From positions 1-64,000 of the forward strand of contig JABXII010000008.1 in NCBI GenBank assembly GCA_013373175.1: DNA of 64,000 bases. The letters are read 5' to 3'. The stretch comes from Campylobacteraceae bacterium. Lineage in GTDB: Bacteria > Campylobacterota > Campylobacteria > Campylobacterales > Arcobacteraceae. The notes under the pieces were generated by a model. It made no database searches, had not been told where the DNA came from, and saw nothing but the letters and a program-made list of their open reading frames with translations. Shown one piece after another: positions 36,859-48,279 of the stretch (position 1 is its first letter; every line of letters begins with the position of its first letter). Position numbers and translations under genes: made by a program.

Positions 36859-39681
36859 ATGTCAGCTAACACATATGAAACTCTGAATGCAAAAGTTGGT
36901 AGACGGTCATTTATGAAAATGGCTGCTGTAGCTACTGCATTTGGTGTTACGTCATCTTTTGCTAGTACTACTGCTACAAGACAAGCTACTGAGGAAGAGA
37001 TTAAGAATCCTTTCCCTGGTTCAAAAATGGTTAAATCTATTTGTACTGCTTGTTCTGTTGGTTGTGGTATTATGGCAGAAGTACAAAATGGTGTTTGGGT
37101 AAGACAAGAAGTAGCTCAAGATCACCCTGTATCACTTGGAGGGCACTGTTGTAAAGGTGCTGATATGATTGATATGGTTAGATCAGAAGTTAGACTTAAA
37201 CACCCAATGGTGAAAAGAGCAGGAAAATGGCAAAGAATTTCTTGGGATGAAGCGTTAGATAATATTGCTAACAAGCTTGAATCTTTAAGAAAAACAGATG
37301 GTCCAGATTCTGCAATGTTTTTGGGATCAGCGAAATTTGGTACAGAGCAATCTTACTATTTCAGAAAATTCGCTGCAATGTTTGGAACGAATAATATAGA
37401 TCACCAAGCTAGAATTTGACATAGCTCAACAGTTGCCGGTGTGGCAAATACATGGGGTTATGGTGCTATGACAAATTCTTTAGGAGATATTCAAAATTCT
37501 AAAGCAATAATTATATTTGGTGCGAATCCAGCGGTTAATCACCCTGTAGGATTCCAACATTTCTTAAAAGCAAAAGAAAGAAATAATGCACAAATTATAG
37601 TTATAGACCCAAGATATACAAAAACAGCTGCAAAAGCTGATTACTTCGCACAAATTAGACCAGGAACTGATATTCCATTTATGTATGGAATGTTAAATCT
37701 TATCTTTAAAAATGGATGGGATAATCTAGAGTTTGTTAAATCTAGAGTGTTTGGTATGGAAGAGATAAAAAAAGAGGCTGCAAAATGGCCGATTGAAAAA
37801 GTTGCTGATGTTACAGGTGTAAAAGCAGAGCTTATTGAGCAAATTACGAAAGTTTATGCTCAAAATACTCCAGGTACACTTATTTGGGCAATGGGACTTA
37901 CTCAACATACAAATGGATCATCAAACACAAGAATGGCTCCTATCTTACAACTTGCTCTTGGAAACATGGGTGAAGAAGGTGGAGGATGTAATATCCTAAG
38001 AGGACATGATAATGTTCAAGGTGCTACGGATATGTGTTGTTTATCACATTCACTTCCAGGTTATTATGGATTAAGTGAAGGTTCATGGAAATATTTCGCT
38101 TCATCTTGGAATGTTGATTTTGATTGGCTACAAGGTAGATTTAAAAGTCCTGAATGGATGGGTAAAAAAGGTTTCACTCTTGCTAGATGGTGGGCTGGAG
38201 TATTAGGTGGAAATCCTGGTGAAGATGCAATTCACAATGCAGGAACAAACTTAAAAGCTTTATTTGTTATGGCAAATGGTATTACATCAATTGCACAACA
38301 AAAGAAAGTAAAAGAAGCTTTAGACAACTTAGAACTTGCAGTATTTGTTGACCCATTTGTAAATGAAGGTGCAATTGTTACTGATAAACAAGATGACGTT
38401 TATATTTTACCAGGTGCAACTCAGTTTGAAACTAGTGGTTCTGTAACTGCTACAAATAGAAGTGCACAGTGGAGAGATAAAATAGTTGAACCAATGTATG
38501 AGTCTAAAACTGACCATGATATTATGTTTGAATTAGCAAAAAGACTTGGGTTCTATAAAGAGTTTGTTGCAGGTATGGGTAAAGGTGAAAACTTCACTTG
38601 GCCAGAAGATGCTACAGATGAAATTGCTAGAACTATTAAGACTATTGGTCTTACAGGTTGGACTGCCGAAAGACTTAAAAAACATCAAAAAAATTGGCAT
38701 ATGTTTGATGAAATTAGTCTTAGAGGATACGGTGAAATGGCTGGTGAGTACTATGGTTTACCATGGCCTTGTTGGACAAAAAGTCACGGTGGATCTCCTA
38801 TTCTTTATAACATTAATAGAAGTGTTAGAGATGGTGGTATGGGATTCAGAAATAGATTTGGACTTGAATACAATGGTGTTTCTCAACTTGCAGGAAAAGG
38901 TTCTGCTCCAAGAGATTCATTCTTCAAAGATGGTTATCCAGAGATTACTAAAGATAACATCGAAGAGATACTTGGAATAAAATTAACTGAAGATGAGAAG
39001 AAAAGAATAGGTAAAAACTGGAAAGTTGATACTTCAGATATTATTGCTGAAAAAAGTATTGAAAGAGGAATCGCTCCTTATGGAAATGCTAGAGCAAGAG
39101 CTGTTGTATGGACATTTGCGGATAAAATCCCAGTACATAGAGAGCCATTACACTCTCCAAGAACAGATTTAACTAAAAAGTATCCAAACTTTGCAGATAA
39201 AAAAGACCATTATAGAGTTGATACAAGATATATAAGTGAACAAACTGAACAAGATTGGGCAAAAGACTTCCCAATTAACTTAGTTACAGGAAGACTTGTA
39301 AATATGAATGGTGCTGGTATTGAGAATAGAGCATCTAAATATCTTGCTAAGTTAACTCCAGAAATGTTCTGTGATATAAACCCAGAACTTGCTGGAAGAC
39401 ATGGAATTAGAGATGGTTCAATGATGTGGATTCATTCACCTCAAGGAACTAAGATTAAAGTTAAAGCTAAATATTCATTTAGTGTATCTGAGGATAGAGT
39501 ATTCTTACCATTCCACTTCGCAGGTGTAATGGAAGGTGTTGATTATACTCATAATTTCCCAGAAGGTACAAAACCTTTTGCATGGGGAGAAAGTGCGAAT
39601 ACTGTAACTAACTATGGTTATGATATTGTTACTCAAATCCCTGAGACAAAAGGTGGATTATGTAGAATAGAAAGAGCGTAG
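36859..39681 (+). CDS. fdhA: Selenocysteine formate dehydrogenase, catalytic subunit
   Basis: 940 residues read continuously through TGA 37417-37419 as Sec187 (context ARI-U-HSSTVAG). A Tat signal (GRRSFMKMAAVATAFG) is followed by a 4Fe-4S motif (CTACSVGCGIM), the Mo/W-bis-MGD fold and a C-terminal dinucleotide-binding domain (INLVTGRLVNMNGAG). It oxidises periplasmic formate to CO2 and passes electrons to FdhB. The Sec ligates Mo or W; the tupABC genes downstream make tungsten plausible. Standard gene callers would split it into two genes. Confidence 0.96.
37417..37447 (+). promoter_or_regulatory. SECIS element of fdhA
   Basis: After UGA at 37417, stem TTGCC (37433-37437) pairs perfectly with GGCAA (37443-37447) around the loop GGTGT. 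The GGU in the apical loop and the distance from UGA match the E. coli fdhF-type element recognised by SelB. Confidence 0.8.
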
Positions 39682-40303: not shown

Positions 40304-41252
40304 AAGTTTTCTTAGCGAATACAAAGCCTATTTATTAATAGGCTTGTTATTCGTCCTTTTAACATATTGGTATTTTTGGTTAGCAACAATTGCAGACATT
40401 AGTTATGTTTACAATTTCTTGTTACAAGTAGCACAAGGTAATTTTACTGGGCAGGTTGTTCCTTTTGACTCTTTAACTAGATATGAGCAAATGGAAGTAG
40501 CACTGTTTGGACCAGAATACGATGCAATTGCACCTGAAGTAATTAGAGCTTTTGAAGAAAGACAGCATTTACTTCCTATAGTATTTACTGTAGAATTCTT
40601 TATTTTTCTAACTATGTTTATAGTTGCAAAGGGAAGAAAACAAGCGAAAATCACAAGAGAAAGTGATAAAGTAAGAGTCTACTCTGTTTTTCAAAGAGTA
40701 GTTATCTTACTTAACATCGTAATTATGATTTATTTATTTATCACTGGTTTTTCAATTACATTTGGAAACTGGACTGGTGGTGGAGAACTTGCAAGATTAA
40801 TGAGGGCAACACATGAGATAGTAGGAGTTGGTTGGATTCCTGTATGGGCAATAATGACTATTATCGCATTTAAAGACCACAAATTTTTTGTAAGACCAAG
40901 TTCTAAGATTTGGAATAAAATTTTCCTAAGAGGAAAATATAAGCATATGGATAGAATCAATTACTACATGTATGTAGCATTTGGTTCAACATTAGTTGTA
41001 AGTGGATTTATCATTTGGTGGTTATTTCCAGATGCTGCAACTCATGCGGAGACTATTCAGCTTAAAAGATTTATTCTTTTCTTCCATTTTATGGGGAGTG
41101 CAATTATTTCATTCTTTACGTTTGAAACAGTTTATTCTTACTTTGTATCTGTAAAAGGATATATTCCTGGAGTAATAACAGGAAAATTACCAGTTGAGTA
41201 TCTAGAACAATTAAGACCTGATGTTCTAGAAGAAGAGGATTTAAGAAAATAG
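40293..41252 (+). CDS. fdhC: Formate dehydrogenase cytochrome b subunit
   Basis: 319 residues from ATG 40293, overlapping the fdhB end by 11 nt. Four to five membrane helices carry His residues for two b hemes (RATHEIVGVGWI, FFHFMGSAI). It is longer than E. coli FdnI because of an N-terminal helix and loop. It anchors FdhAB on the periplasmic face and delivers electrons to menaquinone. A weak hairpin follows at 41265. Confidence 0.9.
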   Translation: MENKSFLSEYKAYLLIGLLFVLLTYWYFWLATIADISYVYNFLLQVAQGNFTGQVVPFDSLTRYEQMEVALFGPEYDAIAPEVIRAFEERQHLLPIVFTVEFFIFLTMFIVAKGRKQAKITRESDKVRVYSVFQRVVILLNIVIMIYLFITGFSITFGNWTGGGELARLMRATHEIVGVGWIPVWAIMTIIAFKDHKFFVRPSSKIWNKIFLRGKYKHMDRINYYMYVAFGSTLVVSGFIIWWLFPDAATHAETIQLKRFILFFHFMGSAIISFFTFETVYSYFVSVKGYIPGVITGKLPVEYLEQLRPDVLEEEDLRK

Positions 41253-41264
41253 AATTAGCATCTA

Positions 41265-41283
41265 AGTTTCCTTTAGGGGAACT
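41265..41283 (+). terminator. Weak hairpin after fdhC
   Basis: AGTTTCC pairs with GGGAACT (one G-U) around TTTAG, followed a few bases later by a T-run. It may end the fdh structural operon before the fdhD unit. Confidence 0.4.
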
Positions 41284-41307
41284 AGGTTGCTTTTTCTGTT
41301 TTATTTA

Positions 41308-41330
41308 TAATATGCAAGATTAGCATATTA
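41308..41330. promoter_or_regulatory. Palindrome 1 upstream of fdhD (candidate ModE-like operator)
   Basis: TAATATGC and GCATATTA form perfect 8-bp arms around AAGATTA. A TATAAT box (41306-41311) overlaps the left arm, so a bound protein would block this promoter. A near-identical copy lies 81 bp downstream. Confidence 0.55.
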
Positions 41331-41388
41331 TTTAGTACAAATAAGAAGAGTTTACTTTAAATATAAGCAGACTTTTTTTAGAATTATA

Positions 41389-41409
41389 AATATGCAAAAT
41401 TAGCATATT
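41389..41409. promoter_or_regulatory. Palindrome 2 upstream of fdhD
   Basis: AATATGC and GCATATT flank AAAATTA, the same half-sites and 7-bp spacing as palindrome 1. It ends 14 nt before the fdhD start. Two ModE-like DNA-binding proteins are encoded downstream in the same unit and are the natural candidates to bind. Confidence 0.55.
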
Positions 41410-41423
41410 AAAAAGAGAAAGAT

Positions 41424-42215
41424 ATGGACAACACAAAATATTTAAAAACAGTAGTAATAGACAAACTTATAGAAAATGAAGCAACTGAATTTGAAGACGT
41501 GACAATAGATGAGTCACGTCTTAATTTGTATTTAAATGGAGAGAAAACCATATCTATGATGTGTATTCCAAAAGACCAAGATGCCCATGCTATTGGTTTT
41601 TTAATGAGTGAAAATGTAATCTCATCAATTGAAGATATTAAAAGTTTAGAAGTTAGCGAAGATGGATTAAGAGTTGATGTTGAGGCTAAAATCGATGAAG
41701 CTTCTTTACAAAACCTTTACAAAGAAAAAACACTTACAAGTGGTTGTGGAGGTGGAGTTACTGGAACTGCTGATGGCAACCTTGAAATCCCTTTTAATCA
41801 AACAGCTTTTAATATCAAACCCCAAACAATTTTAGATGAGATTAAAATATTTTATAGAGAGAGCGAACTTTATAATTTAACTGGTTGTGTACATAAAGCA
41901 ATGATTTATTTACTTGATGGAACAACAGTTACAGCAGAAGATATTGGAAGACATAATGCAATAGATAAAGCTATTGGTAGATGTAAACTTCAAGGATTAG
42001 AAACTAAAAAATCTGTACTTTTTGTATCTGGAAGATTAAGTTCAGAAATGGTTACAAAAGCAGTTATGCATAGAATCCCAATAATTGTTTCAAGAACAGC
42101 TCCTACATATTTAGGCGTTCAAACAGCACATAAACATGGAATTACTCTTATTGGTTTTGCAAGAGGTAAGAAAATGAATATCTATACACACTCTGGTAGA
42201 GTACTAGGAGTGTAG
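41424..42215 (+). CDS. fdhD: Formate dehydrogenase sulfurtransferase accessory protein
   Basis: 263 residues. FdhD moves sulfur from a cysteine desulfurase to the bis-MGD cofactor of FdhA, which needs it for activity. The sulfur-carrying loop TSGCGGG is present (~108), as are GCVHKAMIYL (~155), DIGRHNAIDKAIG (~173) and SGRLSSEMV (~203). It begins a unit after two palindromes. A cysteine desulfurase-like gene lies three genes downstream. Confidence 0.95.
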   Translation: MDNTKYLKTVVIDKLIENEATEFEDVTIDESRLNLYLNGEKTISMMCIPKDQDAHAIGFLMSENVISSIEDIKSLEVSEDGLRVDVEAKIDEASLQNLYKEKTLTSGCGGGVTGTADGNLEIPFNQTAFNIKPQTILDEIKIFYRESELYNLTGCVHKAMIYLLDGTTVTAEDIGRHNAIDKAIGRCKLQGLETKKSVLFVSGRLSSEMVTKAVMHRIPIIVSRTAPTYLGVQTAHKHGITLIGFARGKKMNIYTHSGRVLGV

Positions 42216-42216
42216 T

Positions 42217-42636
42217 ATGGGTAAACTTCAAAATATAATCAATCTTGATGAAACACAAAAAGAACTTATCTTATCAAATTTAGATGATAATGGAAGACTA
42301 TCTTGTCTAAAGGCTTTTAAAGTGGCAAGACTAATTGGGGTAAAACCAATTGAAATGTCAGATGCTTGTAAAAGTATAAATGTAAAGATTACAAATTGTG
42401 AACTTGGAGTTTTTGGAAAAATTAAATTTCAAAATGCAGAGAGTGCAATTTATAGCAAAATAAAACAAAACTTTACACAGGATAGTGATGTTTCTTGTAA
42501 AACCTTATGGTATATAGCACAAGAAAGTAGTTTAAGAAGAGTGGGCAATACAGTGAAAAACAGTGATGTAGAAGTAACAAATTGCCAATTAGGATGTTTT
42601 AGAAAAAGAAAGGGGCATCGTGAAATCAAAAGTTAA
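42217..42636 (+). CDS. Unknown two-repeat cysteine protein between fdhD and a ModE-like gene
   Basis: 139 residues starting 1 nt after fdhD. It consists of two related ~45-residue units: each opens with S-C, contains an A-x-x-hydrophobic helix, and closes with T-N-C-(E/Q)-L-G-x-F (~57-65 and ~123-131). Five Cys in a 139-residue cytoplasmic protein hint at metal or sulfur handling; the helical centre could also be a degenerate DNA-binding fold. No family is recognised. Its place between fdhD and a desulfurase-like gene suggests a role in cofactor sulfuration or its control. Confidence 0.7.
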   Translation: MGKLQNIINLDETQKELILSNLDDNGRLSCLKAFKVARLIGVKPIEMSDACKSINVKITNCELGVFGKIKFQNAESAIYSKIKQNFTQDSDVSCKTLWYIAQESSLRRVGNTVKNSDVEVTNCQLGCFRKRKGHREIKS

Positions 42637-42994
42637 AATCTGGATAGAAGATAGTGAAAATAATCTTATTTTTGGTGGTGGTAAAACTCAAATTCTAGAG
42701 CTAATAGATGAAACAGGTTCAATTTCTGAAGCTTCTAAAAGAGCAGGTATGAACTATAAAAAAGCTTGGTCTCATATAAAAGTTTTACAAGAGTACATAG
42801 ATGATGAATTAGTAATTGTAACTAAAGGAAGAAATTCTGGAGGAACAACATTGACCCCTAAAGCAAAAGAGTTAGTAGAAAACTTTAAAAAGCTTAATGA
42901 AGAAGTTAGTAAATTCTCAGAAAATAGATTCAAAGAACTTTTCTTAAAAAGTGAAAACATTATTCAATGTTCAAAAGATAATGAAAATGTATAA
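42620..42994 (+). CDS. ModE-like winged-helix regulator lacking molybdate-binding domains
   Basis: 124 residues, GTG start overlapping the previous gene by 17 nt. It matches the N-terminal DNA-binding domain of ModE (KIWIEDSENNLIFGGGKTQIL, SISEASKRAGMNYKKAWSHIK) and then stops after a dimerising helix, without the MOP domains that sense molybdate or tungstate in E. coli. It may still respond to metal by another route. Probable targets are the palindromes before fdhD. Confidence 0.85.
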   Translation: MKSKVKIWIEDSENNLIFGGGKTQILELIDETGSISEASKRAGMNYKKAWSHIKVLQEYIDDELVIVTKGRNSGGTTLTPKAKELVENFKKLNEEVSKFSENRFKELFLKSENIIQCSKDNENV

Positions 42995-43958
42995 ATTAAA
43001 TTTTATTCAATATCCAAAGGTAGAAAAGATAGAAGTTAATGAGACTCTTTCTTTACAAGCATTAAAAGATAATGATGAAGCAGAAGCTGTTATAGAGAGT
43101 TTTAAAACAAGATTTAATTTTAACTCTTTAAATTCATTCTCTTTTTCAGAAGATGGATTCTTAAGTTTGATGATAAAACTTGGTGGAAAAATTATTGTAT
43201 CAAAGGGTGAAAGCCAAGCAATAATTGATGCAGCAAATAGATACAAAGACTTAGGTTTTGATCTGGAGTTTATTTCATTAAATAGAAATGGTCAGTTAAA
43301 TTATGATGAAATTAAAAGTTGTGATTTTGCTTTTATCTCGTCTTATATCATGGACACTTATGTAAAAGTAGACTTACAAAAAGTAAAAGAGTTATCAGGT
43401 GCAAAACTAATTTCAAATGTAAGTGCAACATTAGATGTAAGTTCTTGTGATATAGCAATATTTGACGCCTATAAACTTACTGGTTTCTCTTTTTCTTCAA
43501 TTCTTTTACATAATGAAATTTTAGAAGAACAGTATTTAGCTCTTATTGATATTACATCTGTAGTAACTATTTTAAAAGCAGTTGAAAACTTTACAAAGAA
43601 TATAGATTATAAACAAGAGTTTAAAATAGCTTTAGAAGAAGAACTAAAAGAAGATATCTATTTCTTTGTTGACCCAAATGAAACTTTAGAATATACACTT
43701 CATTTTGGATTAAAAGGTATTAAAGCAAGGGAGATAATTCGTTCTTTAGCTTTAGGTGGAATCTTAGTAACAAATGGAGAAGGGTGTTCTTTAGGTTTAT
43801 CAAAACCATCACGGGTTTTAAGTGAAATGGGTTATGAAGAGCTTGAAACTAGATGGGCACTAAGTCTAAGTTTTAAAGAAAAATTATCAAGTGATGATAT
43901 TAATTTAATAGTAAAAGCAATAGGCAAAAAATATAGACAAATAAAAAGGTTAGGCTAA
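42981..43958 (+). CDS. Divergent cysteine desulfurase-like (class V aminotransferase) protein
   Basis: 325 residues; the start could also be 42951 or 42987. The class V fold is seen in ISSYIMDTYVKVDLQKVK, the PLP-lysine region DAYKLTGFSFSS (usual form H-K-x-x-G-P), and the C-terminal loop NGEGCSLGLSKPSRVL, which aligns with the GSACSSGSLEPSHVL active-site Cys loop of NifS/IscS. The Lys and Cys are kept, but the His before the Lys is lost. A dedicated sulfur donor for FdhD, or a selenocysteine lyase for SelD, are the leading ideas. Confidence 0.7.
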   Translation: MKMYKLNFIQYPKVEKIEVNETLSLQALKDNDEAEAVIESFKTRFNFNSLNSFSFSEDGFLSLMIKLGGKIIVSKGESQAIIDAANRYKDLGFDLEFISLNRNGQLNYDEIKSCDFAFISSYIMDTYVKVDLQKVKELSGAKLISNVSATLDVSSCDIAIFDAYKLTGFSFSSILLHNEILEEQYLALIDITSVVTILKAVENFTKNIDYKQEFKIALEEELKEDIYFFVDPNETLEYTLHFGLKGIKAREIIRSLALGGILVTNGEGCSLGLSKPSRVLSEMGYEELETRWALSLSFKEKLSSDDINLIVKAIGKKYRQIKRLG

Positions 43959-45190
43959 TGAAGAAAACATTTTTAGATTTTAATATAGCAATAGAAAAAG
44001 CATTAGAAAATGCGACAGTAACAAAGTTTACTGAAGTAATTAGTATTGATGAAGCTTTAGGAAGAGTTCTTGCAAAAGATATAACTTGTGTTAAAAATTT
44101 ACCATCTTTTAATAACTCAGCAATGGATGGTTTTGCAATAAAAGCAAGTGATGCAGGAAAAGCTTTAAAAGTAAAAAAAGTGATATTTGCAGGCCAGTCA
44201 GTTGAAGCTTGTTTAGAAGAAGGAGAATGCTATAAAATCATGACAGGAGCTAAAGTTCCAGATGATGTGGACACAATTATTCCTATTGAAGATGTAGTAT
44301 CTTTTGAAGAAGATATAGTAACTATTAAAGAAGAGGTTAAAAAAGGTTCTTCTTTAAGACTTAAAGGTGAAGAAAAAGCTTTAGGTGAACTACTTTTTGA
44401 AAAAGGGGAAACAGTAACTTCTAGTAAAGTTGCAGTATTAGCTTCTCAAGGAATTGTAAAAGTAGAAGTATTCAAAAAACTAACAATAGCAGTTGTTTCA
44501 ACTGGAAATGAATTAAAAGAACCTTGGGAAGAAGCAAGTGAAGATGAAATTTATAACTGCAACTCTTATGCTCTTATTTCTTTCTTACAAGAAAAAGGTT
44601 TTAAAGCAATTTATTCAGGATTAGTTCCAGATAACTTAGAAGAGTCAATTGATTTTGTAAAAGATTTATCAACTTATGATGTTGTTATTACAACAGGCGG
44701 TATCTCTATGGGTGATGCAGACTTTATTGGAAAAGCCTTTTTAGAAAATGGTTTAGAAACGATTTTTCATGGAGTAAATATTAAACCAGGAAGACCAATT
44801 ATGATGGGAAAAATGAAAAACACTTTTGTAATGTGCCTTCCTGGAAATCCTCTTACTGCTTTAGTAAATATGCATCTTTTTGCTATTCCAGTTTTAAATA
44901 AGATTCAAGGGAGTAGTTTTATTTATCATGATGTAACAATAGCAAAAAACCAAGAAGAGTTTAAAACAAAAACAGGACGAGTAAATGTAGTACTTGGAAC
45001 TTGTGAAAAAGGAGAATATAAAGTAACAAAACAGAATAAATATGGTTCGGGAATGATTACTGTACTTGATGAGAGTAACAGTATAGTTGTCACTGATGAG
45101 TCAACTTCTAGTATAGAAGAAAGTAGGGACGTTAAAGTGATTAAGTTTTCTTGTTTATATTTAAAAGAACAAGTAAATATTTTTAATTAA
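43958..45190 (+). CDS. moeA: Molybdopterin molybdenumtransferase
   Basis: 410 residues. MoeA inserts molybdate (or tungstate) into adenylylated molybdopterin made by Mog. Motifs: NSAMDGFAIKASD (~50), ITTGGISMGDADF (~245-257) and MCLPGNPLTALVN (~290). Its ATG overlaps the previous stop (TAATG). Its position before tupABC fits a version serving tungsten-loaded FdhA; specificity cannot be read from sequence. Confidence 0.94.
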   Translation: MKKTFLDFNIAIEKALENATVTKFTEVISIDEALGRVLAKDITCVKNLPSFNNSAMDGFAIKASDAGKALKVKKVIFAGQSVEACLEEGECYKIMTGAKVPDDVDTIIPIEDVVSFEEDIVTIKEEVKKGSSLRLKGEEKALGELLFEKGETVTSSKVAVLASQGIVKVEVFKKLTIAVVSTGNELKEPWEEASEDEIYNCNSYALISFLQEKGFKAIYSGLVPDNLEESIDFVKDLSTYDVVITTGGISMGDADFIGKAFLENGLETIFHGVNIKPGRPIMMGKMKNTFVMCLPGNPLTALVNMHLFAIPVLNKIQGSSFIYHDVTIAKNQEEFKTKTGRVNVVLGTCEKGEYKVTKQNKYGSGMITVLDESNSIVVTDESTSSIEESRDVKVIKFSCLYLKEQVNIFN

Positions 45191-45213: not shown

Positions 45214-46029
45214 ATGAAAAAAACATTATTAACTTTAGGTTTATCAGCAATATTAGCATCATCACTTATGGCAAAAGATGCTTTAATGATGGCTACAACA
45301 ACAAGTACAGATAATACAGGATTATTAGACTATCTAGCTCCAAAGTTTGAAAAAGACACAGGTGTTACTTTAAAATGGGTTGCAACTGGAACTGGAAAAG
45401 CTTTAAAAATGGGTGGAAATTGTGACGTAGATATTTTATTTGTACACGCACCAGCGTCTGAGAAAAAGTTTATTGCAACTGGATTTGGTGTTGATAGACA
45501 ACAAGTTATGTATAATGATTTTATCGTAATTGGACCTAAAAAAGACCCAGCTTCTGTTTCTGGTATGACTCCAAGTAAAGCACTACAAACAATCAAAGAT
45601 AAAAGTGCTAAATTCTTCTCAAGAGGAGATAATTCAGGAACAAATAAAAAAGAACTTTCTTTATGGAACAATGCTAAAGTTGATACAAAAGAAGCTTCTT
45701 CTTGGTATGTTCAAACAGGTCAAGGTATGTTAAGAACTATTAATATGGCTGCTGAGAAAAATGGTTATACAATGACTGATAGAGGTACTTGGATTAAGTA
45801 TATGTCTCAAAAAGGTGAAGACAATACAATGAAAGTAGTAGTTGAAGGTGATAAATCATTATTCAATCAATATTCTGTTGTATCAATCAATAAAGAGAAA
45901 TGTTCAAATGTAAAACCTGAATTAGCTAAAAAATTCACTAACTGGGTTGTAAGTCCTAAAACTCAAAAAACAATTGCTGACTTTAGATTATTAGGTCAAG
46001 CACTATTTATTCCTAATGCAGATAAATAA
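45214..46029 (+). CDS. tupA: Tungstate-binding protein of an ABC transporter
   Basis: 271 residues with a signal peptide (LLTLGLSAILASSLMAK). The TupA signature MATTTSTDNTGLLDYLAP with TGTGKALKMG and CDVDILFVHAP is clear and differs from ModA; the TTTS and GTGKAL segments line the oxyanion site. TupA proteins bind tungstate with very high selectivity over molybdate. It is followed by its permease and ATPase genes. Confidence 0.92.
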   Translation: MKKTLLTLGLSAILASSLMAKDALMMATTTSTDNTGLLDYLAPKFEKDTGVTLKWVATGTGKALKMGGNCDVDILFVHAPASEKKFIATGFGVDRQQVMYNDFIVIGPKKDPASVSGMTPSKALQTIKDKSAKFFSRGDNSGTNKKELSLWNNAKVDTKEASSWYVQTGQGMLRTINMAAEKNGYTMTDRGTWIKYMSQKGEDNTMKVVVEGDKSLFNQYSVVSINKEKCSNVKPELAKKFTNWVVSPKTQKTIADFRLLGQALFIPNADK

Positions 46030-46041
46030 GGTATTAAATAG

Positions 46042-46737
46042 ATGAATCTTTTTACGGATGGCTTTCAAGAAGCAATACAATTATTAACATCAGGTAATGA
46101 GTCTGTTTATTCAGCAATTACAACTACTATAACTGTATCTTCTTGGTCTTTATTAATTAGTTTAATATTGGGTCTTCCACTAGGCTTCTTACTGGGGTAT
46201 TATAATTTCCCTGGTAAGGCTGTAGTAAGAACTATTGTTGATACACTCTTAGCTTTGCCAACTGTTGTAATAGGTTTAATTGCATATACAATGTTATCTC
46301 AAGTAGGTCCACTTGGAAGTTTAGGTTTACTTTTCTCTCAAGAAGCAATAATAATGGGGCAAATAGTTTTAGGCTTGCCTATTATTATCGCTTTAACTGC
46401 AACACAAGTTGAAGCTGTAGATAAAAGACTTTATATTTCATTAAAAGGTTTAGGCGCTAGTTCTAAGCAAATTTTGATTGCCACTTTGATTGAAGCGAGA
46501 TTTGGTCTTATGACAGCAGCAATGACAGCTTATGGAAGAATTATTACTGAAATTGGTATTTCAATGATGGTTGGTGGAAATATTAAGTATCACACAAGAA
46601 CTGTTACTACTGCAATTGCATTAGAAACAGGGAAGGGTGAGTTTGTTACAGGAATTGCACTTGGATTAGTATTGTTTGTAGTTGCTTTATCTGTAAATAT
46701 TGCTTTATCTATGTTAAAAAGGAAATGGAACCAATGA
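46042..46737 (+). CDS. tupB: Tungstate ABC transporter permease
   Basis: 231 residues, about five to six membrane helices. The permease coupling region is VDKRLYISLKGLGASSKQI (~130), followed by EIGISMMVGGNIKYHTRT. It begins 12 nt after tupA and its stop overlaps the tupC start (ATGA). Confidence 0.9.
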   Translation: MNLFTDGFQEAIQLLTSGNESVYSAITTTITVSSWSLLISLILGLPLGFLLGYYNFPGKAVVRTIVDTLLALPTVVIGLIAYTMLSQVGPLGSLGLLFSQEAIIMGQIVLGLPIIIALTATQVEAVDKRLYISLKGLGASSKQILIATLIEARFGLMTAAMTAYGRIITEIGISMMVGGNIKYHTRTVTTAIALETGKGEFVTGIALGLVLFVVALSVNIALSMLKRKWNQ

Positions 46738-47756
46738 GTAATATTTATGAGTTAAAAAACATAGAACAATATTATGATGGAAGAAGAGTATTAAATATTG
46801 AAAAACTCTCTTTACAAGAAAGTCAAATAATAGGTTTTTTTGGTCCAAATGGAAGTGGGAAATCAACCCTTTTTTCTCTTTTATCATTTATAAATAAACA
46901 AACAAATGGGGAACTACTTTTTAATGGTGTAGATAATAAGCATTTACAACAAGAGTTAAAACAATCAGTAGTAATGGTTCCTCAAAATCCTTATTTACTA
47001 AAAAGAACAGTATTTGAAAATATTTCATATGGTCTGAAGCTAAGAAATGAAACAAGTAATATTGAAGAAAAAGTAAATGAAGCTTTGTCTTTAGTTGGAT
47101 TAGATAGAAGTTTTGCAAATAGAAAATGGAGTCAACTCTCAGGGGGAGAAGCTCAAAGGGTTGCCCTTGCTGCTAGACTTATATTAAAACCAAAGGTTTT
47201 AATTTTAGATGAACCTACAACAGGAGTTGATACAAATTCAGCTCAACTTATAAAAGAAGCTATTTTAAGTACAAAACAAAAATGGAATACCACAATACTT
47301 ATTTCAAGTCACGATAATAACTGGCTTAATCATATTTGTGATAGAAAAATTGCTCTTTTTAATGGTCATTTAGTAGATAGTGGTAATCTTAATTTACTTT
47401 TTGCACCTTGGGAAAAAGCAGAAGATGGAAATCTTATTAAACTTTTTCCTGATGGGCAAGTATTAAAAATACACAATAGTGAATCTAAAAAAAGAGACTC
47501 AGTTGTAATGATTGAGTCTAATGCAATTAGTATATGTCGATTAGAGTGCAAAGAGTTAATTACTGAGTCTACTTTAATTGGAACAATTAGCTCGATTTCT
47601 CAACAAAATTTAGATGAACTATTAATGGTAGAATTTACAATAGGTGGAATATCATTTAACTGTAAAATAGATAGAAAAATAATGAAAGAACAAAGGTTTT
47701 TACCCTCTGATAGAGTTTATGTAAATATTGATACAAACCAAGTTTGTTGGATATAA
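46734..47756 (+). CDS. tupC: Tungstate ABC transporter ATP-binding protein
   Basis: 340 residues from ATG 46734, preferred to an in-frame ATG 9 nt upstream because AGGA is then well spaced and the TupB stop overlaps. Walker A FGPNGSGKST, signature LSGGEAQR, Walker B LILDEPTTG and SSHD are intact. After the ATPase (to ~225) a C-terminal ~110-residue part ends in a TOBE-like domain (TLIGTISSISQQ, DRVYVNID), which may bind oxyanion to inhibit uptake. Confidence 0.88.
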   Translation: MSNIYELKNIEQYYDGRRVLNIEKLSLQESQIIGFFGPNGSGKSTLFSLLSFINKQTNGELLFNGVDNKHLQQELKQSVVMVPQNPYLLKRTVFENISYGLKLRNETSNIEEKVNEALSLVGLDRSFANRKWSQLSGGEAQRVALAARLILKPKVLILDEPTTGVDTNSAQLIKEAILSTKQKWNTTILISSHDNNWLNHICDRKIALFNGHLVDSGNLNLLFAPWEKAEDGNLIKLFPDGQVLKIHNSESKKRDSVVMIESNAISICRLECKELITESTLIGTISSISQQNLDELLMVEFTIGGISFNCKIDRKIMKEQRFLPSDRVYVNIDTNQVCWI

Positions 47757-47925: not shown

Positions 47926-48279
47926 ATGAATTTAAAAGTCAAGTTGTGGATTGAAAACAAAAATAGAAATCTTATTTTTGGGGATGGTAAAAATTTAATC
48001 TTGCAGTATATTGACTCTACTGGTTCTATTAGTGAAACAGCAAATAAACTTTCTATGTCTGAAGATAATATCTTAAAGCACTTAAGAATCTTAGAAGATA
48101 ATAATACAAGTGAAATGGTATTAAAAATACAAGGTTTAAAAAAAGATTCTAAAGCCTCTTATGTTTTAACTCCTGAAGCTAGGATGGTTTTACAAACCTA
48201 TCAAATCTATCAACACGATATCAAAAAGTTTGCACAAAAAAAATTTGATGAGATTTTTAAAGATTTTATAGAAAAATAA
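47926..48279 (+). CDS. Second ModE-like winged-helix protein
   Basis: 117 residues, same domain as the ModE-like protein at 42620 (KLWIENKNRNLIFGDGKNLIL, STGSISETANKLSMSEDN) and likewise without MOP domains. The recognition helix differs (SEDNILKHLRIL), so its target may differ. The spacer after tupC suggests its own promoter. One of the two may control tupABC and the other the fdhD unit. Confidence 0.82.
   Translation: MNLKVKLWIENKNRNLIFGDGKNLILQYIDSTGSISETANKLSMSEDNILKHLRILEDNNTSEMVLKIQGLKKDSKASYVLTPEARMVLQTYQIYQHDIKKFAQKKFDEIFKDFIEK

Follow-up and report, generated by a model that had tools for sequence, protein, structure and literature searches.

The ModE protein of Campylobacter jejuni has no metal-binding domain and represses molybdenum and tungsten transport genes, as stated in PMC7011364 with reference to Taveirne et al. 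2009. Deletion of modE in this species abolishes FDH activity and the defect is complemented, and in PMC11237541 the authors suggest a role for ModE in FDH biogenesis beyond repression. C. jejuni ModE (Cj1507c) is encoded after fdhD and has an HTH orthologous to that of the protein described here, designated sModE; a MOP domain was not found in it (subsp. jejuni 414).

The window, that is the whole stretch of 64,000 nucleotides analysed, comes from a genome of the Arcobacteraceae. It differs from C. jejuni in that an unannotated protein, p139, is encoded between fdhD and sModE. In the C. jejuni type of ModE the p139 half is fused to the HTH in one ORF, whereas the window has two overlapping genes. 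A ModE without MOP is already known from C. jejuni; what is new here is the candidate operator, the regulon and the split partner. No description of this operator was found in the literature, in a weak search partly swamped by the ordinary word 'mode'.

The winged-helix DNA-binding domain of ModE is present in sModE, with a match to TIGR00637 of 70.5 bits (E 9.8e-20; cut-off 98.5). Profile searches of the PDB gave 2ijl as the best match (E 5.2e-14), together with 1o7l and 1b9m (E 1.8e-9, E. coli ModE). The domain search of the 124 amino acids gave HTH matches only, and the C-terminal di-MOP/TOBE region was not found. The winged helix is thus common to sModE and E. coli ModE (1b9m, 1o7l), while TOBE/MOP was not found in sModE. 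The putative ModE of Agrobacterium tumefaciens in PDB entry 2ijl (135 aa), likened here by the entry title, is also a short ModE HTH. TunR of Desulfovibrio, which we take to be a tungstate-related regulator, presumably combines a ModE-like DNA-binding domain with an integrase-like second domain; no integrase-like domain was found in sModE.

The fdhD locus and its two palindromes

Upstream of the palindromes is an FDH unit of fdhA, fdhB and fdhC, ending at 41252 (Table 1). The in-frame TGA of fdhA presumably encodes selenocysteine. The terminator-like hairpin that follows fdhC suggests that a new transcription unit begins at the palindromes, with the order fdhD, p139, sModE, an aminotransferase-like gene, moeA, tupABC-like genes and sModE2. 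The p139 and sModE ORFs overlap by 17 nt. The aminotransferase-like gene, perhaps a sulfur donor for FdhD, is found in all 24 FDH loci of relatives without sModE as well.

Table 1. Coordinates of features in the window, and of the loci in related genomes where a TonB-dependent receptor starts beside an exact site
Feature	Position	Strand	Remark
fdhA	36859..39681	+	upstream FDH unit; in-frame TGA ending at 37419
Terminator-like hairpin	41265..41283	+	between fdhC and palindrome 1
Palindrome 1	41308..41330	.	candidate sModE operator; overlaps TATAAT at 41306-41311
Palindrome 2	41388..41410	.	candidate sModE operator; overlaps TATAAA at 41385-41390
fdhD	41424..42215	+	first gene of the unit; FdhD equivalog, above cut-off
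p139	42217..42636	+	unannotated protein; four invariant Cys, two repeats
sModE	42620..42994	+	short MOP-less ModE, 124 aa, GTG start; putative binder of the palindromes
Class-V aminotransferase / cysteine-desulfurase-like gene	42951..43958	+	start codon uncertain
moeA	43958..45190	+	
tupA-like	45214..46029	+	best NCBIfam match TupA, 348 bits, cut-off 400
tupB-like	46042..46737	+	best NCBIfam match TupB, below cut-off
tupC-like	46725..47756	+	best NCBIfam match TupC, below cut-off
sModE2	47926..48279	+	second ModE-like protein, altered DNA-reading helix; probably not binder
TonB-receptor locus L352	2601-4538		
TonB-receptor locus L358	4623-6569		
TonB-receptor locus L423	1-956		
TonB-receptor locus L424	3988-5001		

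Palindrome 1 is TAATATGC-AAGATTA-GCATATTA, with perfect arms of 8 bp. Palindrome 2 is AAATATGC-AAAATTA-GCATATTA, with an A as the outermost base on the left, and the arms therefore match over 7 bp. An earlier note on this DNA had described two palindromes 81 bp apart with the same half-sites, each near a -10-like box. The pair and both boxes are present, the distance is 80 bp from start to start, and the half-sites are the same except for the outermost left base of palindrome 2. The TATAAA box shares the first three bases of palindrome 2, and the end of this palindrome is 13 bp from the fdhD start codon, adjoining the ribosome-binding region. A scan of the palindrome region with the sigma-70 consensus gave four promoter-like sites, 2.9 being expected from shuffles, and therefore adds nothing to the case for a promoter.

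The 2.76-Mb genome has exactly two copies of the 12-base core ATATGC-N7-GCATAT, both in this pair. In order-1 Markov copies of the window the exact 12-base core came up at 0.015 per 64 kb, which corresponds to about 0.65 per genome, and a close pair was found in none of 200 copies. A looser 16-base pattern with up to three mismatches gave three matches in the window, a number reached in 5 of 100 shuffles and only mildly unusual by itself. At least 29 matches with one mismatch, coding or unclear, are found in the same genome. The palindromes are placed beyond chance by the exact pair together with their conservation in relatives, not by the count of the looser pattern. An origin by chance was rejected on the two cores genome-wide, the expectation from random copies and the whole-genome counts in relatives.

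Conservation and co-occurrence with sModE

sModE was matched at E 1e-12 in 53 of 104 genomes of the family, in three of them (G058, G097, G098) through a long ModE only, giving 50 sModE-positive and 54 sModE-negative genomes. The fdhD loci of all 50 positive genomes were examined and one was dropped, as a contig end cuts the locus (G109, L142). The motif search in related genomes that the earlier note had proposed found the palindromes conserved: of 49 sModE-positive family genomes, 44 (43 of 48 and the genome of the window) have a site no further than 300 bp from fdhD, with one mismatch or none. The same test gave none in 24 loci from 23 sModE-negative genomes, where the best match, seen once, had three mismatches. 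Two loci from outside the family (L058, L059), in which no site with up to one mismatch was found near fdhD, were kept in the statistical comparison (44/51 versus 0/24, Fisher p ~1e-13). Five positive family genomes lack such a site before fdhD (G082, G091, G094, G099 and G100), and three of these carry a site with two mismatches. For 40 of the 43 relatives that carry a site, the 19-bp core nearest to fdhD starts 30-41 bp before the gene, a position that, as far as sequence goes, is repressor-like. The spacing within pairs ranges from 33 to 111 bp and has no clear helical phase (nine loci, L056 left out).

Exact copies of AATATGC-N7-GCATATT number 79 in 41 sModE-positive genomes and 5 in 54 sModE-negative genomes, or 1.9 versus 0.09 per genome, and at least one copy is found in 36 of the 41. 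These 41 do not include the genome of the window, with its two sites, and eight other positive genomes. A looser end base gave 96 sites in the family, of which the 79 reading AATATGC...GCATATT were kept, matching the sModE-negative control. Among the 17 sites dropped are true sites at fdhD or the aminotransferase-like gene (e.g. in G107, G112, G017 and G096) and four in G070, two of which were examined and sit in a repeated transposase-looking gene. The five exact sites of the sModE-negative genomes are all inside ORFs. What was read directly from the genomes comprises the sites and how they are conserved, the co-occurrence with sModE and the content of the regulon.

Within each of the genera g1, g17, g18 and g2 some genomes have sModE and others do not. 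The fdhA type of the sModE-negative genomes has about 56-61% identity to the fdhA of the window and about 50-54% to fdhA2, a second type; sModE and FDH type are thus partly confounded within the family. fdhA2 did not serve as a clean control for the FDH type, as the sModE-negative genomes carry a third type. That confounding caused the co-occurrence is argued against by the Desulfopila case described below and by the spread of the sites over FDH, transporter and TonB genes.

Genes adjacent to the sites

A tally by hand placed 68 of the 79 exact sites at genes for FDH, FDH maturation or tungstate uptake. The sites precede fdhD (28), an FDH operon of the fdhA2 type (26) or an operon with the FDH type of the window (7), or lie where the aminotransferase-like gene begins (5) or at tup or wtp genes (2). 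The others are before a TonB receptor (4; G015, G090, G091 and G105), before an ABC system of the FecCD type (2), inside an fdhF-like gene (2; G090 and G091) and in a RhuM-like gene (2), with one next to an unclear neighbour (G002). The assignment of one pair, which adjoins the second fdhA2 copy of G095, used coordinates only.

All 15 fdhA2 copies found in 12 sModE-positive genomes have a site, which is exact in 13 and has one mismatch in one and two mismatches in another. The second FDH operon (fdhA2) has one to three exact sites in L344, L347, L349, L354, L355, L356 and L361. None of 17 FDH operons from sModE-negative genomes (L401-L417) has a site with up to two mismatches before fdhX or the first gene of the operon. 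Sites precede three different FDH types, including the one in Desulfopila. In relatives the sites are also found between divergent tupA and tupB, and the wtpA next to a site scored 380.6 against an NCBIfam WtpA cut-off of 355.

In G015, G105, G090 and G091, four genomes that represent three genera, the start of a TonB-dependent receptor gene adjoins an exact site (Table 1); the receptor family scan covers the G015 and G105 copies. From its position next to the site this gene is a candidate outer-membrane receptor for tungsten or molybdenum. The locus L357 (1510-4465) of G105 has a pair of exact sites before an importer of the FecCD type, followed by another TonB-receptor-like gene. The TonB-type receptor, in its four genomes, and the FecCD-type system are candidate genes for tungsten or molybdenum uptake.

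The same core is found inside a RhuM-like coding gene, at position 1502 of L326, L328, L364 and L366. Two of the five exact sites of sModE-negative genomes are in this gene, as are sites in two sModE-positive genomes, and these are taken as a coding coincidence.

The p139 protein

Four invariant cysteines in two repeats characterize p139 (18 sequences). It is part of a fused open frame of about 243-281 amino acids in Sulfurospirillum and 11 of 12 Campylobacter loci, with a p139-like N-terminal half and the ModE HTH as the C-terminal half; the exception, L242, has a short form of ModE. Searches with p139 gave no Pfam family, only scattered weak matches, and nothing convincing among PDB profiles, and its single-sequence model had no Foldseek match at E 0.001. 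The model of the fused protein (pLDDT 81.6, pTM 0.47) had structural matches spanning residues 128-238, which barely cover the p139 part. The helix-strand order of p139 looks winged-helix-like.

p139 is next to sModE in 48 of 49 loci, the exception being G013, which has both sModE and sites; in the Desulfopila locus it was not found. It is also present beside fdhD in 15 of the 24 FDH loci without sModE. A second p139 paralog is present in many genomes, in a context without molybdenum genes in the four examined, and also in G009 and G014, genomes without an fdhD match. The genome of the window has such a paralog on contig C34, in a non-molybdenum neighbourhood (L419, 4722-5129). The presence of p139 in sModE-negative loci and the second paralog mean that it is not only a part of the regulator. 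A role for p139 as indispensable sensor is weakened by G013, by Desulfopila, by the loci without sModE and by the paralogs.

Sites outside the Arcobacteraceae

Desulfopila sp. IMCC35006, from another phylum (Thermodesulfobacteriota), has an sModE of 49% identity, followed by a site and then an fdhA-like gene. The site, AAATATGC-AATATTT-GCATATTT, is the only exact match in the 5.6-Mb genome. sModE and site are here linked without the other genes of the window, in a single case. Sulfurospirillum diekertiae has one exact site and one with one mismatch upstream of a molybdopterin aldehyde oxidoreductase gene (1609 versus 1100 bits). The ModE ortholog of Sulfurospirillum superposed on E. coli ModE with Z 14.6 and an rmsd of 1.5 over 102 residues.

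The ModE ortholog was present in 57 loci, 12 of them titled Campylobacter and 45 not; some of the latter are family members or MAGs with doubtful titles. When sites anywhere in the locus were counted, allowing one mismatch, 40 of these 45 had one (528 kb, about four sites being expected from background) and none of the 12 Campylobacter loci did. Ten Campylobacter loci were also searched at two mismatches and none had a site before fdhD. The operator may thus have diverged in Campylobacter, or the regulator of the window differs from that of C. jejuni.

Proposed regulation and alternatives

The palindromes are probably operators for sModE, with one dimer per palindrome. When bound, sModE would sit over the -10 region and the first part of the 5' leader of the unit that runs from fdhD through p139, sModE, the aminotransferase-like gene and moeA to tupABC. 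Palindrome 2 is so close to fdhD, and the cores of relatives are at such a distance before it, that bound protein would block the start of transcription or early elongation. sModE most likely represses this unit, including its own gene, when the cell has ample tungsten (or molybdenum). In relatives the FDH structural operons, the tup/wtp transporters and the TonB-type receptor would be under the same protein. This gives a concrete candidate operator and regulon for a ModE without MOP. Binding by sModE, repression, tungstate as the signal and the signal route are what we infer. The signal would, by analogy with C. jejuni, be tungstate or molybdate sufficiency, reaching sModE through p139, by direct binding or through another partner.

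The sign of the regulation may differ at the FDH operons. The loss of FDH activity in the C. jejuni modE mutant, as given in PMC11237541, is not predicted by a plain repressor, and by analogy it points either to a positive effect at these operons or to a function of its own for the p139 half. The p139 of the window is the counterpart of one half of C. jejuni ModE, and the p139 domain in that protein offers a possible, testable reason for the mutant phenotype. A related but doubtful version is that sModE only reads DNA and that p139 reports the tungsten, cofactor or Fe-S status of FDH maturation, so that the FDH, tungsten-uptake and TonB genes would follow maturation and not the free oxyanion. 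If true, this would also account for the C. jejuni mutant.

It is improbable that the palindromes are instead the operator of another transcription factor travelling with these FDH operons. Such a factor would fit the difference in FDH type of the sModE-negative genomes and the Campylobacter loci without a site despite a ModE ortholog. A site of 31 bits, the core part of which is inflated by the way the sites were picked, would suit many dimeric factors. Against it, one type of site precedes three FDH types and also wtpA, the tup genes and the TonB receptor, the number of exact sites per genome follows sModE, and in Desulfopila sModE is adjacent to the only exact site of the genome.

A third reading, that the palindromes are RNA stem-loops in the 5' leader of fdhD and act as a terminator or an attenuator or by covering the ribosome site, is very unlikely. 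The folds have -7.8 and -5.9 kcal/mol (z about -4.2), as any palindrome would, and palindrome 2 does adjoin the ribosome-binding region. The 336 half-site pairs of 56 sites are in contrast made up of 312 consensus pairs, 23 one-sided changes and one compensated change. The reading was rejected for this absence of covariation, while arms conserved in sequence fit a protein site. The spacer is conserved as well as the arms, and sites between divergent tupA and tupB and before several other genes are not in an fdhD leader.

That sModE2, alone or as heterodimer, binds the sites is scarcely credible and was rejected. Its HTH is of the ModE type, matching TIGR00637 at 34 bits (below the cut-off), and the C-terminal helix motif is retained, but the near-invariant NYKKAW.H motif is lost and reads SEDNILKH. 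Within the family only G000, G015 and G003 gave a match to sModE2, whereas the site is family-wide. Between these two proteins only sModE is for these reasons a credible binder, and sModE2 is possibly its partner or antagonist. Of the two MOP-less ModE-like proteins put forward in the earlier note, sModE thus stands as the candidate and sModE2 does not; the proposed tie of the palindromes to a ModE-like protein without MOP/TOBE is borne out by the co-occurrence in relatives, and the palindromes also go with tungstate-uptake and FDH genes.

Some relatives also have a separate, full-length ModE. Two such proteins were tested (L031, L042); both have TOBE and adjoin a ModA-like gene, named by eye. 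Varied palindromes of the TATATA type with a short spacer are found upstream of several full-length ModE genes, and are only suggestive of an operator of the full-length protein.
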